Assembly (NCBI GenBank): GCA_002696275.1
Contig: NZRO01000025.1
Location: 65,977-108,669, forward strand
Origin: Flavobacteriales bacterium
GTDB lineage: Bacteria; Bacteroidota; Bacteroidia; Flavobacteriales; BACL11
Direction: 5' to 3'
DNA length: 42,693 nt
The stretch's first letter is position 1, and each line of letters opens with the position of its first letter. Both the position numbers and the translations under genes were made by a program. Positions 4,302-19,433 of this stretch are shown piece by piece. The notes under the pieces were generated by a model, which saw only the letters and a list, made by a program, of their open reading frames with translations, searched no databases and was not told where the DNA came from.

Positions 4302-5045
4302 TTGAAAAAAAAGAAGTCATACTCAAAAGAAAACAAAAATACTTTAAGACTGAACCAATATTTGGCACATGCAGGTATTTGCAGCAGAAGAGAAGCTGAT
4401 TTGTTTATTAAAGCTGGAATTGTTGAAGTAAATGGTAAACACATTACCCAAATGGGATATAGAGTTAAAGAGTTTGATGTAGTAAAATTTAATGGACGCA
4501 CATTAAAATCAGAAAAAAAACAATATCTATTGTTAAACAAACCTAGAAATTATTCTTGTAGACTTGAAAATTACGGAAAAAGAGATTCTGTTTTTGAACT
4601 AATTAAAAATGTTTGCAAAGAAAAAGTTCTTCCTGTTGGAAAATTAAACAAAAATACAAGTGGATTACTTTTATTTACTAATGATGAGAAGTTATCTACA
4701 AAACTTTCTCATCCTAAAAAAGAATTTAAAAAAATCTACCACATAACTTTAAATAACCCATTAAAGTCATCAGATTTTAAAAGAATAAAAGAAGGATTAA
4801 TCATTGATGGAGAGAAAATAAATATTGACCTAATATCTTATGTTTTAGATAAAGCAAAAGATGAAATTGGATTGGAATTAAAATCCAATAAAAGAAATAT
4901 AGTTTCTAAAATATTCGAACAACTAAATTACAAAGTGCTTAGGTTAGATTTAGTGTTTTTTGGAGGACTCACAAAAAAAGATATACCAAGAAAAAAATCT
5001 CGTTTTCTTACAGAGAATGAAATAAATTTGCTGAAAAGACTATAG
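4302..5045 (+). CDS. RsuA/RluB-family pseudouridine synthase homologue, probably inactive
   Basis: The fold is that of rRNA pseudouridine synthases (uridine to pseudouridine in ribosomal RNA). An N-terminal S4 RNA-binding domain (LRLNQYLAHAGICSRREA, roughly residues 13-75) precedes the catalytic domain, and the LTKKDIPR segment near the C-terminus is typical of RluB. The key motif GRLDxxTxGLLL reads GKLNKNTSGLLLF, so the catalytic Asp is Asn116. The conserved NRxVRRxF motif reads RNIVSKIF, losing both arginines. The Tyr in KIYHIT is kept. Length (247 residues) and frame are intact, so the protein is probably expressed but catalytically dead, perhaps an RNA-binding ribosome factor. The start is TTG, since no ATG lies before the S4 domain; the AT-rich, lysine-rich leader is usual here. 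Confidence 0.8.
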   Translation: MKKKKSYSKENKNTLRLNQYLAHAGICSRREADLFIKAGIVEVNGKHITQMGYRVKEFDVVKFNGRTLKSEKKQYLLLNKPRNYSCRLENYGKRDSVFELIKNVCKEKVLPVGKLNKNTSGLLLFTNDEKLSTKLSHPKKEFKKIYHITLNNPLKSSDFKRIKEGLIIDGEKINIDLISYVLDKAKDEIGLELKSNKRNIVSKIFEQLNYKVLRLDLVFFGGLTKKDIPRKKSRFLTENEINLLKRL

Positions 5046-8892: not shown

Positions 8893-9738
8893 TTATAGAG
8901 AGCAGTTTCCTAAATTATTTTTATTTAGATAGTTTTGGTGATACTCCTCTGCTCTAAAAAAAACAGGAGCTTTCTCGATTTTAGTAACTATTGGATTACT
9001 CCACTTTTCTTTAATAAGTTCAATAGAATTTAAAGCCAAATTCCTCTGAACATCTGTAGTATAAAAAATTATAGACCTATATTGTGTCCCTATATCTAAT
9101 CCCTGTCTATTTAGAGTGGTTGGATTATGATTTTTCCAAAAAATATCTAATAAACTTTCATATGAAATGACATTTTCATCAAAATATATTTCAACAACCT
9201 CAGCATGATTGGTTTCTCCTGAACATACTTCTTTATAATTTGGGTGGATAGTATCCCCCCCCATATATCCCGATTGACACATATAAACTCCTTTTCTCTC
9301 TCTAAATACCCTCTCAACATTCCAAAAGCATCCAGCCCCAAAATATGCTTTTGATAAATTATTATATTTCTTGAATTGAATACTTAAAGAATTTACACAA
9401 TGTCGAGTATCCTTTTCAGTAATTTGCTCTCCATGAAATACATGTCCTAAATGCCCGTTACAATTGCTACAACAAATTTCAGTACGCACTCTTCCACCAC
9501 TAAGGTCTTCATGTCTTGATATAGCTCCCGGAATTTCATCATCAAAAGAGGGCCATCCACAACCAGAATTAAATTTAGTTTTTGATTCATATAAAGGATT
9601 TTTACATGCTCTACAAATAAAAACACCTGCTTCAAAGTGATTATTATATATACCTGTAAAAGGAGCCTCTGTTCCCTTGTTTACGATAATATCTCTTTCT
9701 TCCTTGTTTAAATCTGAAAAAAAATCTTTACTACTCAT
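8893..9738 (-). CDS. msrBA: Fused peptide methionine sulfoxide reductase MsrB-MsrA
   Basis: Repairs oxidised methionine in proteins: MsrB reduces the R-sulfoxide and MsrA the S-sulfoxide. Residues 1-124 are MsrB, with zinc cysteines 42/45 (CRAC) and 90/93 (CSNC) and catalytic Cys114 in RHCVNSLSI. Residues ~130-281 are MsrA, with catalytic Cys137 in GCFW and a Cys two residues from the C-terminus (NCSL) that may serve in recycling. The B-then-A order is the reverse of the better-known MsrA-MsrB fusions. No signal peptide is seen, so it is probably cytoplasmic. It lies 10 bp after the deacetylase gene on the same strand and ends 2 bp from the convergent kinase gene. Confidence 0.94.
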   Translation of the reverse strand: MSSKDFFSDLNKEERDIIVNKGTEAPFTGIYNNHFEAGVFICRACKNPLYESKTKFNSGCGWPSFDDEIPGAISRHEDLSGGRVRTEICCSNCNGHLGHVFHGEQITEKDTRHCVNSLSIQFKKYNNLSKAYFGAGCFWNVERVFRERKGVYMCQSGYMGGDTIHPNYKEVCSGETNHAEVVEIYFDENVISYESLLDIFWKNHNPTTLNRQGLDIGTQYRSIIFYTTDVQRNLALNSIELIKEKWSNPIVTKIEKAPVFFRAEEYHQNYLNKNNLGNCSL

Positions 9739-12044: not shown

Positions 12045-12956
12045 TTATCTCATTATTTGATTTTCAGTAGAAGGACGGAAAGTAATTCCAAACATAAACT
12101 CGTGGGAACCTGAAGTATAAGAATTGATATCTGAGTTAGGGATATCATAAGAATATCCAACCATATATTTATCTTGTATATAAAATCCTAGTAATGCAGA
12201 AATATCCCCATTGTTTCTATAGTCCATACCCATCCAGAATTTATCATTATATATTGTTTTTAAACCTATATCAACCTGAGATTGATCAGATACTGATTTA
12301 TACAATACAGAAGGTTGAATCCCCCAATAATGACTTACCTTAATATTATATAAACCCATTATATTCATATGACGAGCTAAACTAGCGTCTAATGTAACTG
12401 TATCTGTTCCTGTTAAAGTTAACTCACTGTTTAATAATTGTGGAATAGAAGCTCCTATATACCACTTATCTTCATTGTAAATATTTAATCCAAAAGTTGC
12501 ATCTGGAACTATATTTACAATTTCACCTCCATTCATTAAGGGATCATCAGGGTTAGCTAAATTCCAATTTACTTTATCAATTTTAAATTGAGAAAATCCT
12601 CCCGACAGAGCTAACGAGAGTTTTATATTTTGGGATATATTTAGATGATAAGCATAAGTTAATGCAGCTCCAGCCCTACTAGTAGGACCTACTTGATCAT
12701 TAAAGACAGTCCCCCCTAATCCAACATGGTCGGAAGTTCTTCCATAGATACTTAATAAGGTAGTTTTTGGAGCATCCTCAATTCCTACCCACTGGTTTCT
12801 AACAGATGTCTTTATTTGATAATAATCATTCATACCCGCTATTGCAGGGTTTACTGCAAAATCGTTAATCATAAATTGTGACAATTGAGGAGTTTGTTGA
12901 GCATACAACATACTTCCTATAAAAATTGATACAAATAATAGACTTAATTTTTTCAT
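12045..12956 (-). CDS. PorP/SprF family type IX secretion partner protein
   Basis: Outer-membrane beta-barrel-like protein of the PorP/SprF family, which helps export or anchor a specific type IX-secreted surface protein encoded beside it. The 303 residues start with a signal peptide (MKKLSLLFVSIFIGSMLYA). The family signature QTPQLSQFMINDFAVNPAIAG follows, then VRNQWVGIEDAP, and alternating beta strands to a C-terminal strand ending in FMFGITFRP. It starts 12 bp after the stop of the SprB-repeat gene, so the two form an operon. The specific partner is inferred from this pairing. Confidence 0.92.
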   Translation of the reverse strand: MKKLSLLFVSIFIGSMLYAQQTPQLSQFMINDFAVNPAIAGMNDYYQIKTSVRNQWVGIEDAPKTTLLSIYGRTSDHVGLGGTVFNDQVGPTSRAGAALTYAYHLNISQNIKLSLALSGGFSQFKIDKVNWNLANPDDPLMNGGEIVNIVPDATFGLNIYNEDKWYIGASIPQLLNSELTLTGTDTVTLDASLARHMNIMGLYNIKVSHYWGIQPSVLYKSVSDQSQVDIGLKTIYNDKFWMGMDYRNNGDISALLGFYIQDKYMVGYSYDIPNSDINSYTSGSHEFMFGITFRPSTENQIMR

Positions 12957-12968
12957 CTTAATTTAAAT

Positions 12969-15900
12969 TTATCTTACAATAGTAACAGCTCCTGTTTGTA
13001 AATCTGAGCCATCATTTTGGTTAATAGTATAATAATATGTACCTACTGGTAATGGGTTCCCTTCTGAAGTACCATCCCATTTATTATTGTTATAATTTTC
13101 TCCAGTCGAGCTATAGATTAAAGTACCCCATCTATTAAATATCTTTATTTCAGCATAAGGATATCTTTCTATATCAAGTATTTCCCACTCATCATTTATT
13201 CCGTCGCCATTAGGTGAAATTGCATCATAAGGAACCGCTCCTACAACTACATAAATAGAGTCAACACCTTGACATCCTATATTATCTGTTACTGTAACAT
13301 AATACCAAGTTGAAACATCAGGGTAATCTGTTATACTAAATCCTGTTGCTGTGTCATTATCCCAAGTCCACTGAAAGTTATTATATAAATTAGAAGAGGA
13401 AATAGTTGTTTGATCTCCTTTCACAAGCGGATTTGGATCAGCAGTAGGATTAATATCTAACTGCTCCACCTCAAAAGTTGCTTCAATATTAAATGGATCT
13501 AATGGACAATTTACCTCATCAGTAATAGTAAGCTGGTAGTTTGTTATTGGATCTTGAGGGGTAACTGTGATAGAAGCAGTTGTTCCTATTATAACATTAT
13601 CATTCATGTTTGTCCACATATAAGAATGATTTGGTTTATCTTCTATCTGAATAAATACTGATTTTCCTAAACATATTGTTGAGTCTAAATAATCATCATT
13701 ATTTGGTAAAAACACATTCATGTGGCCATTAATATGAGTTTGATCAGTAATTGTACATCCATTATCATCTGTCACAACAACAGTATAAGATGTATTAGGA
13801 GTAAGATTTGTTGCTGAAGATGTTGTTTGGCCTCCAGGAGTCCATAAATAAGTATAGTTTGGAGTTCCTCCTAAAACATAAGCGGTTGCACTTCCTTCGG
13901 TTAAACATGTTTTATCTGTAGAATCTGTAAAAATACTTAAAGGGTTAGTTGGTTGTGCAACATATACCATGTTCGAATTTGCTGTACAATTATTTACATC
14001 TGTTACAACAACCTGATAAATTCCAGTGTCTAAGTCTGAATATGTTCCGGTTCCAGTACTTGTGCCAAAATCATAGTTTGTAGTAGCATTACCAATATTT
14101 GGAGTCCATGAATAAGTATATTGATTATTTACATTTACAGAACCTCCATTAACTGTAACAGTAATCTCACCCGTTGATTCTCCAAAGCATAAAACATCTG
14201 AAATATCAACATCAAAAATATTTGCTTGTAACAAATCTGGTTGTGAGAGAGTATAATCTGTTGTGTCCATACATCCTAAAACATCTGTGGCAACAACAAC
14301 ATATGTTGCTGCAGACAGATTATTAATTGATGTTGACGATGAAGATTGACCTGTATTCCAAGTATATATTACATTGCCTGTATTTCCACCAGTCGTAGAA
14401 ACAGACAGAGACCCGTTACTACCACCATAACATGATATATCACCTGACTGTAAAATCGATATTTCAAATTCTTCTGGTTGAGTTAAATCATATGTTTCTG
14501 TTGTAGTACATCCTAAAGCGTCCGTAATAATGCAGGTAAATGTTGAGATGTTTGTAATTTCATCCACACACAAACCTATAGCTGTTTGTGTTGTTTGAGA
14601 TAATACATCATTCCATTGAAAGTTATATATTGAATTTCCAGATCCATTAATATTCGGGACTCCACCTGAAACATTAATTGTAATCTCTCCGTCACAATAA
14701 TTCCAGCATGTAGGGTTTTGTGTCGCGCCAATATTAGTAGATAGGACACTATTTCCATTTACAATAGCAGTTGTAGTAGAAGAACAGTTGTTTTCATCTG
14801 TTACAGTAATATCATAATTACCAACTCCTACATTACTAATAGAATAAGTTGTATCTCCAGTGTTCCACAGATATGAGTAAGTTGTAGCAGATCCTACACC
14901 GCCTGAACCATTCCAAGTAATCGCTCCATTTGTCCATCCAGAACAGGTAATATGATCAATGACAAAATTATGAGAAATCACTGTTGGTTCTTGGTATGTT
15001 AAAACCTCTTGATAGATACAACCATTGACATCAGTAATTTCAAAAGTATATAATCCAGCCACAAGGCCTGTTATATAATTAGAGGTTCCATTATAAAATA
15101 TATTATTAGAGGAATCATATATTGTTTTAACATAAGGTCCATTTCCTCCATTTATTGAAATAGTAGCTGTCCCAGAATTATCTCCATTACACTTTATTTC
15201 ATATCCGTTCCACAATGAGGTAGTAATAGATACATCTAATACATCTGGCTCTTCTATTATAATTATATCTTGAGCTGAACAATTATTAGAATCTACAACC
15301 TGTACAGTATAAGTTCCAGGACCATACGAATGGAAATATGCCATATTTGTATGGTAGGCCCCTCCATTTACAGAATATAAATAAGGAGATACACCTCCGA
15401 AAGCATCAATCGCCAGAATTTGACCATCATTTGCTCCATTACAAGTAATATGAGAAAAAATAGTTGTATCTATATACAAAGAATCTGGTTGAGTAATAAT
15501 AACAGTATCTCTATCTATACAGCCTTTAGAATCTCTAACATACATTATATATTGATTAGGAGAAAGATTAATAAATGAAATTCCATTCTGAGTAAATACT
15601 CCATTAGTATTAGAATAAACATAAGGCAGTTGACCACCAGTTGCTAAAACGGTAATAGAAGCATTATTCGCATTATTACAAGTAATTTCAGATATAATTA
15701 ATGAATCTATTTCTATAGATTGTGAAGGTTCTAAAATTTCTACTGAATCAATAAATAAACAAGAAAATGAATCAGTAACTGTTAAAGTATGATAACCAGC
15801 GGTAAATGTATTAACAAAGTTTACTGTACTTCCGTTAGACCATAATAAATTATACGGTCCAACACCGCCGGAAATAATCGCGGTAGCTTGACCGTCTGAG

Positions 15901-18900
15901 CCACCTAAACAGGTTACAGAATCTCTTAAAAACTGTACCGAAATAGCAGAAGGTTCTGTAACTGTAAAATCTTGTGATGTAACACATCCGTTATCATCTG
16001 TAACTGTTGCAGTATAAACACCTGCAATTAAAGTTGAATTAGAACCTCCACTCCAGGTATAATTGTAGTTAGGAGTTCCACCAGAAACTGTAGCAATAGC
16101 AGAACCATCAGACCCTCCATTACAACTTACATTTGTTACTGTAATATTAGAGATAGTTAAGCTATCTGGTTGTGTAATGTTTTCATTGGAAGAAGTTGTA
16201 GTACATCCCATTGAATCTGTAACTACAACATTGTAAGTTGAAGGCATTAAATTTATTGCGGGATTGGAAGTTTGTCCATTATTCCATAAGTAAGAATATG
16301 GAATTGTTCCGCCAATAACATTTGCCGTAATTTGTCCATCTGAACTATCATAACATAATACATTTTGAATTGTTAAAGAGTTAATTACTAATTCATCTGG
16401 TTCATTTACAAAAATTGAATCTGAGTCAGTACATCCTTCAGAGTCTACAACTGTAATAAAATAAGAAGCTTCTCCTGAGGGCCCAAAAGGAGTCCCTAAT
16501 GGGACAAATGTATTTCCTCCATCAGAAGAGAATTGATATGGAGCGGTTCCAGAGGTTGCTGATGTAATCAGCATACCGTCATTTGCTCCATAGCAAGAAA
16601 CATTTTGAACTGTTACATTAAGTATAGGGTTAGTTCCTGGATTAATAACCGCTGTGTCTGTAATCATACATCCATTTGCATCCGTTATATCTACAATATA
16701 AGTTCCCGGAAACAATAAAGATATATTATCTGTGTTAGCTCCAGTTGACCATAAGTAGCTATAGCCTGGTGTACCTCCAGAAACAAATACCTGAGCCTCT
16801 CCATTTGCAGCGGTCTGACTTCCAGAACATGATGAATTACTTATTATATTTGTATTAGATGTTAAAGCAAAAGGCTCATTAACAATGACCGAAACTTGTA
16901 GTGGGTTAGATGTACAGTTATTCACATCTGTTACACTTACCGTATATGTTCCAGCTGTTAAATTATTAATTATAGATGTATTCTGACCTGTATTCCATGT
17001 ATAAAAATAAGGAGCGGTACCACCAGAAACAGAATCTACCAAGACAACACCATCAGATCCTCCATTACAACTTACATCTATAGATGTAGCAGAGTAATAA
17101 ATAACATCTGGCTCAGTAATAGTTACTGAAACAAAATCAGCACATCCATTAGCGTCTTCGGCAAATACATTGTACGTTCCTGCATATAAACCACTAAATA
17201 TATTATTGTATTGAGGAATTGGGAATACACCAGGTATATAATACTGATATGTTCCTAGTCCTGTTCCTCCAGCCGCGATTACGGTAATAGTATCTGACTG
17301 AAATCCATTACACAATACATCTAGAGTTGAATTTGACACATCTAAAGAAACAGTTACAATAGCAGAAGCAGGAACTTCAACAGAATCTGTTACGGTACAA
17401 CCTGTAGCGTCTGAAACAGTTACAGAATAATATCCTGGACTTAGACCCGTAATTGAATTAGTTATTGACCCAGTTTCCCATAAGATATTATATGGAGGGG
17501 TTCCACTAGGAATTACTGTAGCAGATCCATCTGCTCCTCCATTACATGGTGGAATACTATCAAAACTTAATGTGATATCTGCTTCTGGAACAAAAACATC
17601 TTCTGTAAATTCACATCCATTTGCGTCTGTCACTCTTACTTCATACAATCCTGTAGATAAATTTGTTGCTATTGCTGTAGTTTGTGCAGACAAATCATCC
17701 CATAAATATACATATGGATTAGTGCCTCCTTGAGTTACAGAAATAGACGCTTGTCCGTTTACTAAATTACAGGTTTCTGTTATTGAATCAACAGTGTACA
17801 CAAAAGGTAATGGTTCAGTTAGAGTAATATTTGTTGAAGCTGTACATCCATTATCATCCGTAGCGTTCAAGGTATAAGTTCCAAAACTTATATCGCCGCA
17901 CATACCTGTCCACGACTGCGAAGTCTGAGTAGAGTAACCCGTCATATCATAAATAATTGGAGAAATGCCATTAGTATTAAGAACACTAACTGAGCCATCA
18001 CAAATTCCAGGGCAGGATATTAAATTATCCATTGTGTAATTAATTGTAAATGGCAATGGCTCCGTCAAGTTTACTAATATTGTACTAATACAACCATTCG
18101 CATCTTGTACAGAAATATTATATGCACCAGATGATAATCCAGTATAAGACATAGAGTTAGTATAATTTACTCCATCAATTGAATAAGTATATGGAGCTTG
18201 TCCTCCAGATGGAGCATTAAATGTTATTTCACCATCACTAAACCCAGCACAACTTATATTAAATCCATTATAATCAGAGGTTGTATAAGAGAACGAAACC
18301 TCTGTTGGTGTAGATATAAATTTATTTGCTGTGAAAGTACATCCATTAGCATCTTGAACTGTTATAGAGTATGTTGTATTTCCACATAGGGATGAAAATG
18401 TACTTGAATTTTGATAAGCTCCACCATCAATTGAATATGTGTAAGGAGCGGTTCCAGTCAAAATATTATCGACCTGAAAATCTAATACTCCATCACAAAC
18501 TCCAAAACATGAAACTTGACTCGTAATTGAAATAACTCCAGATAGATCTGGTGGGTTGTTTAGTGTTATCGTCTCTGAGGTATCACAACCATTAGCATCT
18601 CTGTAATAAATTGTATATGTTCCTGCTGAAAGATTAGAGAAAATTGCAGAATTTCCATAAGTTATTCCGTCTAAAGAATAAGTATATGTCGGGGAACCAC
18701 CAGAAACGGAAGCGGCAATTTCTCCATCTGCAGCTCCAAAACAACTAATATCTTGCCCATTATAATTAGAAGAAACTGATGCATTAGGAACCAAAGCGGT
18801 TGGTTCATTGACTGTTGTAGATGTTGGAGATGATCCATCAACAGTACACCCATTCACATCTGTAACATTTATATTATAATTTCCAGCACATAGATTAGAA

Positions 18901-19433
18901 TAAATTGAGTCAAATGCATCTATTATTGTAGCATTACCTCCTCCAAAAGCAATTGAGTATGGGGGTGTTCCCCCAAAAACATTTACAGCTATTTGTGCGT
19001 CACAATCTCCATAGCAATCTAATGATGCATTTTGTGTAGCTGTATTCGACAACTGTAATGGTTGCGATATATTTATAGAAGTAAAATCATAAATTGAATT
19101 AGGATCAGCGCCATCTGGGTTAGTAATGTAATAAGATACTGAATCAACTAACCTAACGGTGTAAGTTTGAGCTCCAAGACCCGGAACATTTATATTAGTT
19201 ACTGTAGTATTATTGGTAGATGTTATTGGAATAAATGTTCCAAAAATATCATAACCAACAACAACCTTCAATAATGTTGGTGGAGATGTTTGATTTACCT
19301 GAATGTTTATTGAAGCAAAATCACCAAAACATAATATTGGTGAAGTAACAGAAACATTCTGAATAGTTTGAGATTGTAAACTAATCGAGTAAATCGACAA
19401 TAAAAAAGTAAATCCTAGAAGTAATTTTTTCAT
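12969..19433 (-). CDS. Giant SprB-repeat surface protein with gliding-motility C-terminal domain
   Basis: Large cell-surface adhesin-like protein exported by the type IX system. Of its 2154 residues, the first ~22 form a signal peptide (MKKLLLGFTFLLSIYSISLQ). An N-terminal domain follows, then by my count about 22 SprB-type repeats of 70-95 residues. Each runs roughly as I/VSCNGGSDG...SGGTPxYxYxW...LxAGTYTVTVTDxNGC...EP. Two unlike Ig/PKD-like segments come next (about residues 1900-2070). The end carries SPNGDGINDEW and the FNRWG/LPVGTYYY pattern of the CHU_C-type gliding-associated domain, used as a type B sorting signal. The repeats are clearly diverged from one another. SprB itself drives gliding in Flavobacterium; here either gliding or adhesion is possible. 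The PorP/SprF-like partner follows by 12 bp. Confidence 0.93.
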   Translation of the reverse strand: MKKLLLGFTFLLSIYSISLQSQTIQNVSVTSPILCFGDFASINIQVNQTSPPTLLKVVVGYDIFGTFIPITSTNNTTVTNINVPGLGAQTYTVRLVDSVSYYITNPDGADPNSIYDFTSINISQPLQLSNTATQNASLDCYGDCDAQIAVNVFGGTPPYSIAFGGGNATIIDAFDSIYSNLCAGNYNINVTDVNGCTVDGSSPTSTTVNEPTALVPNASVSSNYNGQDISCFGAADGEIAASVSGGSPTYTYSLDGITYGNSAIFSNLSAGTYTIYYRDANGCDTSETITLNNPPDLSGVISITSQVSCFGVCDGVLDFQVDNILTGTAPYTYSIDGGAYQNSSTFSSLCGNTTYSITVQDANGCTFTANKFISTPTEVSFSYTTSDYNGFNISCAGFSDGEITFNAPSGGQAPYTYSIDGVNYTNSMSYTGLSSGAYNISVQDANGCISTILVNLTEPLPFTINYTMDNLISCPGICDGSVSVLNTNGISPIIYDMTGYSTQTSQSWTGMCGDISFGTYTLNATDDNGCTASTNITLTEPLPFVYTVDSITETCNLVNGQASISVTQGGTNPYVYLWDDLSAQTTAIATNLSTGLYEVRVTDANGCEFTEDVFVPEADITLSFDSIPPCNGGADGSATVIPSGTPPYNILWETGSITNSITGLSPGYYSVTVSDATGCTVTDSVEVPASAIVTVSLDVSNSTLDVLCNGFQSDTITVIAAGGTGLGTYQYYIPGVFPIPQYNNIFSGLYAGTYNVFAEDANGCADFVSVTITEPDVIYYSATSIDVSCNGGSDGVVLVDSVSGGTAPYFYTWNTGQNTSIINNLTAGTYTVSVTDVNNCTSNPLQVSVIVNEPFALTSNTNIISNSSCSGSQTAANGEAQVFVSGGTPGYSYLWSTGANTDNISLLFPGTYIVDITDANGCMITDTAVINPGTNPILNVTVQNVSCYGANDGMLITSATSGTAPYQFSSDGGNTFVPLGTPFGPSGEASYFITVVDSEGCTDSDSIFVNEPDELVINSLTIQNVLCYDSSDGQITANVIGGTIPYSYLWNNGQTSNPAINLMPSTYNVVVTDSMGCTTTSSNENITQPDSLTISNITVTNVSCNGGSDGSAIATVSGGTPNYNYTWSGGSNSTLIAGVYTATVTDDNGCVTSQDFTVTEPSAISVQFLRDSVTCLGGSDGQATAIISGGVGPYNLLWSNGSTVNFVNTFTAGYHTLTVTDSFSCLFIDSVEILEPSQSIEIDSLIISEITCNNANNASITVLATGGQLPYVYSNTNGVFTQNGISFINLSPNQYIMYVRDSKGCIDRDTVIITQPDSLYIDTTIFSHITCNGANDGQILAIDAFGGVSPYLYSVNGGAYHTNMAYFHSYGPGTYTVQVVDSNNCSAQDIIIIEEPDVLDVSITTSLWNGYEIKCNGDNSGTATISINGGNGPYVKTIYDSSNNIFYNGTSNYITGLVAGLYTFEITDVNGCIYQEVLTYQEPTVISHNFVIDHITCSGWTNGAITWNGSGGVGSATTYSYLWNTGDTTYSISNVGVGNYDITVTDENNCSSTTTAIVNGNSVLSTNIGATQNPTCWNYCDGEITINVSGGVPNINGSGNSIYNFQWNDVLSQTTQTAIGLCVDEITNISTFTCIITDALGCTTTETYDLTQPEEFEISILQSGDISCYGGSNGSLSVSTTGGNTGNVIYTWNTGQSSSSTSINNLSAATYVVVATDVLGCMDTTDYTLSQPDLLQANIFDVDISDVLCFGESTGEITVTVNGGSVNVNNQYTYSWTPNIGNATTNYDFGTSTGTGTYSDLDTGIYQVVVTDVNNCTANSNMVYVAQPTNPLSIFTDSTDKTCLTEGSATAYVLGGTPNYTYLWTPGGQTTSSATNLTPNTSYTVVVTDDNGCTITDQTHINGHMNVFLPNNDDYLDSTICLGKSVFIQIEDKPNHSYMWTNMNDNVIIGTTASITVTPQDPITNYQLTITDEVNCPLDPFNIEATFEVEQLDINPTADPNPLVKGDQTTISSSNLYNNFQWTWDNDTATGFSITDYPDVSTWYYVTVTDNIGCQGVDSIYVVVGAVPYDAISPNGDGINDEWEILDIERYPYAEIKIFNRWGTLIYSSTGENYNNNKWDGTSEGNPLPVGTYYYTINQNDGSDLQTGAVTIVR

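Follow-up and report, generated by a model that had tools for sequence, protein, structure and literature searches.

The window analysed here is a stretch of 42,693 nucleotides from the genome of a Flavobacteriales bacterium (G000), and it carries an RsuA/RluB-like gene in a single open frame whose length and residues match those described in the initial annotation (Table 1). The product has the domain arrangement of the RsuA/RluB family, an N-terminal S4 domain (PF01479, 43.6 bits) and a pseudouridine synthase catalytic domain (PseudoU_synth_2, PF00849, 56.9 bits), both above the Pfam cut-offs, which bears out the earlier claim that S4 domain, frame and length are intact. The start codon is TTG and the first in-frame methionine is residue 51; the N-terminus is short and lysine-rich and its true start is unsure, whereas in the genus relatives read longer basic stretches are open upstream of the start. 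The AlphaFold2 model (mean pLDDT 88.3) finds its nearest solved folds in RluF (3dh3), RsuA (1ksk/1vio) and RluB (4lgt), and it matches 3dh3 and 4lgt along nearly the full length; the nearest solved chains by sequence are likewise RluF, RsuA-type and RluB.

Table 1. Features of the window, with the basis of each assignment
Feature	Coordinates	Strand	Basis
RsuA/RluB-like protein of 247 aa, catalytic residues lost, start codon TTG	4302..5045	+	ORF, Pfam, alignment, AlphaFold2
S4 RNA-binding domain, residues 16-61	4347..4484	+	Pfam PF01479
Arg29, counterpart of RluB Arg17 (RNA-loop anchor), kept; R in 155 of 156 orthologues, 1 gap	4386..4388	+	alignment; role from part of PMC3919597
Lys114 replacing RluB base-flipping Arg108	4641..4643	+	alignment; R108A data from part of PMC3919597
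Asn116 (codon AAC) replacing RluB catalytic Asp110	4647..4649	+	alignment
Tyr146, counterpart of RluB Tyr140, kept; Tyr in 146 of 156 orthologues	4737..4739	+	alignment
Motif III remnant RNIVSK (198-203) replacing RluB N193-R194-x-V-R197-R198	4893..4910	+	alignment
Lys231, a basic residue that the degenerate clade has gained	4992..4994	+	orthologue alignment
Fused methionine sulfoxide reductase, SelR (MsrB) then PMSR (MsrA) domain	8893..9738	-
PorP/SprF protein adjoining the 2154-aa SprB-repeat protein	12045..12956	-
SprB-repeat protein of 2154 aa carrying a CHU_C type IX secretion signal	12969..19433	-

RluF (the 23S U2604 synthase) is the best match to the window protein in both sequence and fold, but with 100 bits the protein stays far below the cut-off of the NCBIfam RluF model (318), which a separate RluF-type gene of the same genome passes. 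Against TIGR00093 (pseudouridine synthase) it scores 80.2 bits, below the cut-off of 109.3, and three intact orthologues scanned score 135.6-152.9. The E. coli 23S U2605 synthase RluB (4LGT, 4LAB, 9CL9) shares the S4 and catalytic domains, the predicted fold (TM about 0.75) and the counterparts of Arg17 and Tyr140, but its NCBIfam model, with a cut-off of 290, gives the window protein 75 bits; since three intact Bacteroidota orthologues scanned also miss that cut-off (111-128 bits), RluB is used here as a working name only.

Recurrent loss of the catalytic core

In E. coli RluB, as set out in the part of PMC3919597 used here for this enzyme and its homologues, the S4 domain lies at the loop of the 23S stem-loop and the cleft on its stem, U2605 is flipped out with Arg108 filling its position in the stem, and Asp110 is catalytic; the roles of Arg17, Tyr140 and Arg194 are taken from the same source. 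RluB positions were counted across onto the window protein on a pairwise alignment. With the E. coli RluF and RluB chains aligned, Asn116 of the GKLN motif falls on the catalytic Asp, as the initial annotation had proposed, and in the alignment no other Asp replaces it. The annotation argued for loss of catalysis from changes in motifs II and III and overlooked the replacement of Arg108 by Lys114. Its two lost motif III arginines are confirmed as Arg197 to Ser202 and Arg198 to Lys203, with the refinement that Arg194 has become Asn199 and that an arginine of the window protein, Arg198, occupies the site of RluB Asn193. According to the same part of PMC3919597, RluB R108A retains 0.6% of activity, Lys or Met at the Arg108 site inactivates RluA, TruA, TruB, RluA and RsuA lose all activity when the Asp is mutated, and RluB Y140F keeps about 3%. 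The window protein lacks the counterparts of Asp110, Arg108 and Arg194 and keeps that of Tyr140, together with the TND segment (126-128). Glu141 (RluB Glu135, which contacts A2602) is also kept, but it carries no weight because the site is variable (Glu in 16 of 132 proteins outside the family). From these residues we strongly infer that the window protein is catalytically inactive.

The change extends well beyond the window genome. The window's family is represented here by 52 genomes, of which 42 gave a readable orthologue; one 51-residue piece (G034) was dropped and the remaining nine, most of them incomplete bins, showed no orthologue. The catalytic Asp is absent in 27 of these 42 proteins (N 21, D 15, G 3, and L, K and M once each), the Arg108 site reads K 31, R 7, Q 2, T 1 and S 1, and the Arg194 site K 21, N 9, R 6, E 3, Q 2 and G 1. 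At least one of the three residues is missing in 38 of the 42, and all three are kept only in genus g9 (four genomes). The Arg17 site, in turn, is R in 42/42 and the Tyr140 site Y in 40/42. Within the window's genus four species, the window's included, carry the Asn form and one (G005) the Asp form, with both Arg108 and Arg194 lost. A sequencing error is therefore unlikely, as the annotation also held, because the Asn recurs in three of the four other species of the genus that yielded the gene. One genome, G064 (96% complete), shows no RluB-type match, its match being RluF, which suggests that loss of the RluB-type gene may be tolerated. Three further loci (L052, L053 and L054, genera g12 and g15) are 35-37% identical to the window protein with the surroundings of motif II largely erased, and may be closer to being lost or to taking on a new role.

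Outside the family, Asp and Arg197 (column 202) are kept in 78 of 78 named Bacteroidota comparators, a sample that is not neutral because it consists of the best 80 matches less two family members. From a sample of the order, in which 143 of 146 genomes had a match, all matches were read except those of G064 and of 14 out of 26 genomes in genus g35 (family f16); adding the remaining family members plus G040, G042 and G055 gives 156 orthologues. Asp is absent in 33 of them, 27 in the family and six outside, where it is replaced by Gly in four single-contig genomes (G108, G116, G147 and G167), by Ser in G143 and by Glu in G089. These six loci lie in two other families (L169, L170, L171 and L268 in G108, G116, G167 and G147, respectively; L155 in G143; L148 in G089). 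In genus g17 Arg194 is Lys in all 15 genomes read and Asp is kept.

A tree of the 156 orthologues was built by a quick method without the catalytic columns; several of its forks are weak, it is rooted at the midpoint, and G016, G008 and G009 sit on long branches. On this tree Asp changes seven times. The family without g9 forms a single clade (SH-aLRT 96) in which no member retains the full core of Arg108, Asp110 and Arg194, and g9 falls apart from it. If Asp is never regained, four losses lie in this clade, one of them inside the window's genus; the parsimony alternative under the midpoint root has five losses and two regains overall, with G005 as a regain. The comparison with relatives called for in the annotation thus returns a loss that is clade-wide and repeated.

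The RluF paralogue and the rRNA target

The window's genome (1.79 Mb, 93.6% complete, 52 contigs, 3% contamination) contains four PseudoU_synth_2 matches: the window gene, the RluF-type gene L003 (325.5 bits against the cut-off of 318, motifs intact) and two genes judged by eye to be of RluA type, with motifs HRID and HRLD. The second intact copy that the annotation suggested looking for was not found among these matches as an RluB-type gene; the intact relative is the RluF-type paralogue. On contig C49 of this genome a frame for a Dam-like DNA adenine methyltransferase (L002, 1378-2226, minus strand) lies directly upstream of an RluD-like gene, both judged by eye.

RluF was searched for in the family and in the order sample; G040, G042 and G055, outside those searches, have an intact RluB and no RluF-like second match. 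Asp is absent in 29 of 110 genomes with RluF and in none of 39 without it, four low-completeness bins of the family apart (G004, G008, G018 and G074, 76-89% complete), which are Asp-less without a visible RluF; congeners of G004 and G074 carry RluF. Counting any change in the Arg108/Asp110/Arg194 core, 62 of 68 genomes have RluF, and the other six are the four bins and two f16 genomes with Lys at Arg194. The reverse pattern is seen in g9, where RluB is intact and RluF was not found, two of the four genomes being 94-95% complete. The family RluF proteins themselves keep Arg, Asp, Tyr and NRxxRR in 50 of 51 loci read (37 genomes, some read twice), the last having an unread letter at Asp.

By genus, Asp loss occurs in 14 of 38 RluF genera and in 0 of 17 without RluF (Fisher test, p = 0.003, which ignores kinship). 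With independent pairs the association is not significant, the informative pairs being too few, and since parsimony already places RluF on 74% of branches, the fall of Asp losses on RluF-bearing branches is alone unremarkable. The association of RluF presence with RluB Asp loss is therefore a lead and not a proof. A takeover of U2605 by RluF through an altered bulge-binding loop was considered and set aside, as the loop shows no switch in the affected lineages (21 family against 20 other RluF proteins).

Loss of the rRNA target was also considered, and the one piece of 23S rRNA recovered gives no sign of it. The window's genome yielded no 23S rRNA, and a 17-base 23S pattern matched exactly in one of the 52 family genomes (G002, of the window's genus and with the Asn form), the other 51 having no exact match; the G002 piece keeps the stem-loop letters GAGACAGTTCGG, located by E. 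coli numbering.

Constraint on the degenerate proteins

Pairwise dN/dS was obtained by NG86 or YN00, leaving out values with method failure or undefined dS; dS exceeds 1 in many pairs, for which the values are rough. Where both sides are Asp-less it is 0.03-0.21 in g11, 0.12-0.15 in g10, 0.08-0.16 in g1, 0.18 in g13, 0.14 for g3/g7 and, for family f3, 0.04-0.08. Where just one of the two proteins has Asp, the values are 0.15-0.17 in g1 and 0.38 for G016-G028 (G016 Asp-less), and a g15 pair with Asp present and both Arg lost gives 0.34. For comparison, the intact RluB of g9 ranges over 0.05-0.18 and RluF mostly over 0.02-0.11, with 0.19 for G016-G028. The low values in Asp-less pairs indicate that the protein is kept.

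Column conservation was compared between 35 family proteins (without g9, g12 and g15) and 86 intact proteins. Its mean in degenerate and intact proteins, respectively, is 0.79 and 0.73 in the S4 domain (residues 14-61), 0.75 and 0.72 in the C-terminus, 0.73 and 0.86 in motif II, and 0.60 and 0.77 in motif III. Conserved residues specific to the lineage include Lys231, Arg246 and Cys105-Lys106-Glu107; site 231 is Lys in 34 of the 38 family proteins outside g9 and Gly in 117 of 118 others (one gap). The mean net charge of the aligned core is +18.1 in the 33 Asp-less proteins against +14.3 in the 86 intact ones, the intact g9 proteins reaching +25 to +27. Together, dN/dS and S4 conservation support retention as a working protein, and the reading as a pseudogene is rejected on open frames, low dN/dS and the conserved S4 domain.

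A putative ribosome assembly factor

The initial annotation proposed that catalysis was lost and that the protein became an RNA-binding ribosome factor. The loss is well supported, as it affects three residues needed in studied relatives and is recurrent; the ribosomal role fits these data, and since selection still maintains the protein, it is probably a ribosome-binding helper rather than an enzyme. The explanation towards which we lean, by a modest margin over even chances, is that the family's RluB-type orthologue became a lineage-wide pseudoenzyme, permitted by RluF and kept as an rRNA-binding 50S assembly factor. The base-flipping and motif III arginines would have decayed first, in an ancestor that had an RluF-type synthase as well, and the catalytic Asp would have been lost afterwards, several times. 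The protein, whose predicted fold resembles those of RluB and RluF and which retains S4, anchor Arg and active-site Tyr, may still bind the 23S domain V stem-loop (around A2602-U2605) on the immature 50S, where it would make no pseudouridine and would act as a folding or quality-control factor or tune the access of RluF. We infer such binding during assembly because S4 and Tyr are kept, the flipping Arg and Asp are lost, and RluB is bound in the solved entry 9cl9 ('WT 12C IM fraction, B-b3 with RluB bound'), the particle of which we read from this title as immature 50S. A wider proposal, offered tentatively and with rather less confidence, is that in at least one whole Flavobacteriales family, and again in two others, RluB-type enzymes repeatedly turned into non-catalytic 50S assembly factors that hold or check the peptidyl-transferase stem-loop, RluF permitting the change and RluB staying catalytic where RluF is absent.

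Precedents exist in other systems. In trypanosomes the pseudouridine synthase orthologue mt-LAF3 is needed to avoid depletion of mitochondrial rRNAs and its catalysis is not required (part of PMC11469412), although the setting is a eukaryotic mitochondrion. RlmB and an RlmL domain support growth or 50S assembly in E. coli without catalysis (part of PMC11194073), but these rRNA modification enzymes are methyltransferases and are active in nature. RsuA (PMC7356742) offers a further analogy. On the other hand, the part of PMC11194073 drawn on reports no significant growth effect or rescue by E. coli RluB in a strain deleted for ten modification enzymes, which speaks against an assembly role, and in the same strain RluC D144A worsened growth. 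The open-licence literature searched on pseudouridine-synthase pseudoenzymes, RluB/RluF and non-catalytic functions showed no description of dead RluB-type bacterial proteins. For rRNA modification enzymes it is an open question whether the modified base or the binding during assembly is what counts, and engineered dead mutants are the usual means of asking. In the present case evolution seems to have introduced the dead mutation several times while the protein was kept; the resulting natural orthologues, dead or Asp-bearing and even in a single genus, together with fully intact ones in the same family, offer direct test material. Such genes should also not be labelled active synthases in annotation.

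Unlikely, though the strongest competitor, is a slow decay, with the RluB mark rendered dispensable by RluF and the gene drifting to loss under residual constraint. The absence of an RluB-type match in G064, the divergence of g12 and g15, the two highest dN/dS values (g15 pair and G016-G028) and the company of RluF in most changed-core genomes are what decay would leave behind, but the open frames, the low dN/dS of g11, g10 and g1, the strongly conserved S4 domain and the newly conserved Lys231 are at odds with it. Retention as an assembly factor also has to be weighed against a new non-ribosomal function, with mRNA, tRNA or a protein partner engaged through S4 and the dead cleft; this is improbable, for the lineage-specific residues listed above would suit it, yet the most conserved part is the S4 domain that RluB uses for its rRNA stem-loop, and none of eight window neighbours scanned indicates another RNA pathway. 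That the protein remains a synthase, through unconventional chemistry or an acidic residue in a shifted position and perhaps acting on another site, is very improbable despite the kept Tyr146, TND segment and predicted fold: in the alignment no acidic residue substitutes for Asp110 save the Glu of G089 in another family, the replacements within the family differ, Arg108 and Arg194 are lost as well, and the Asp is indispensable in the four enzymes named earlier. A sequencing, assembly or contamination artefact, which the fragmented state of the window's genome could invite, is refuted by the same or similar changes in other genomes and genera, including Asp-less orthologues in the single-contig genomes of another family.
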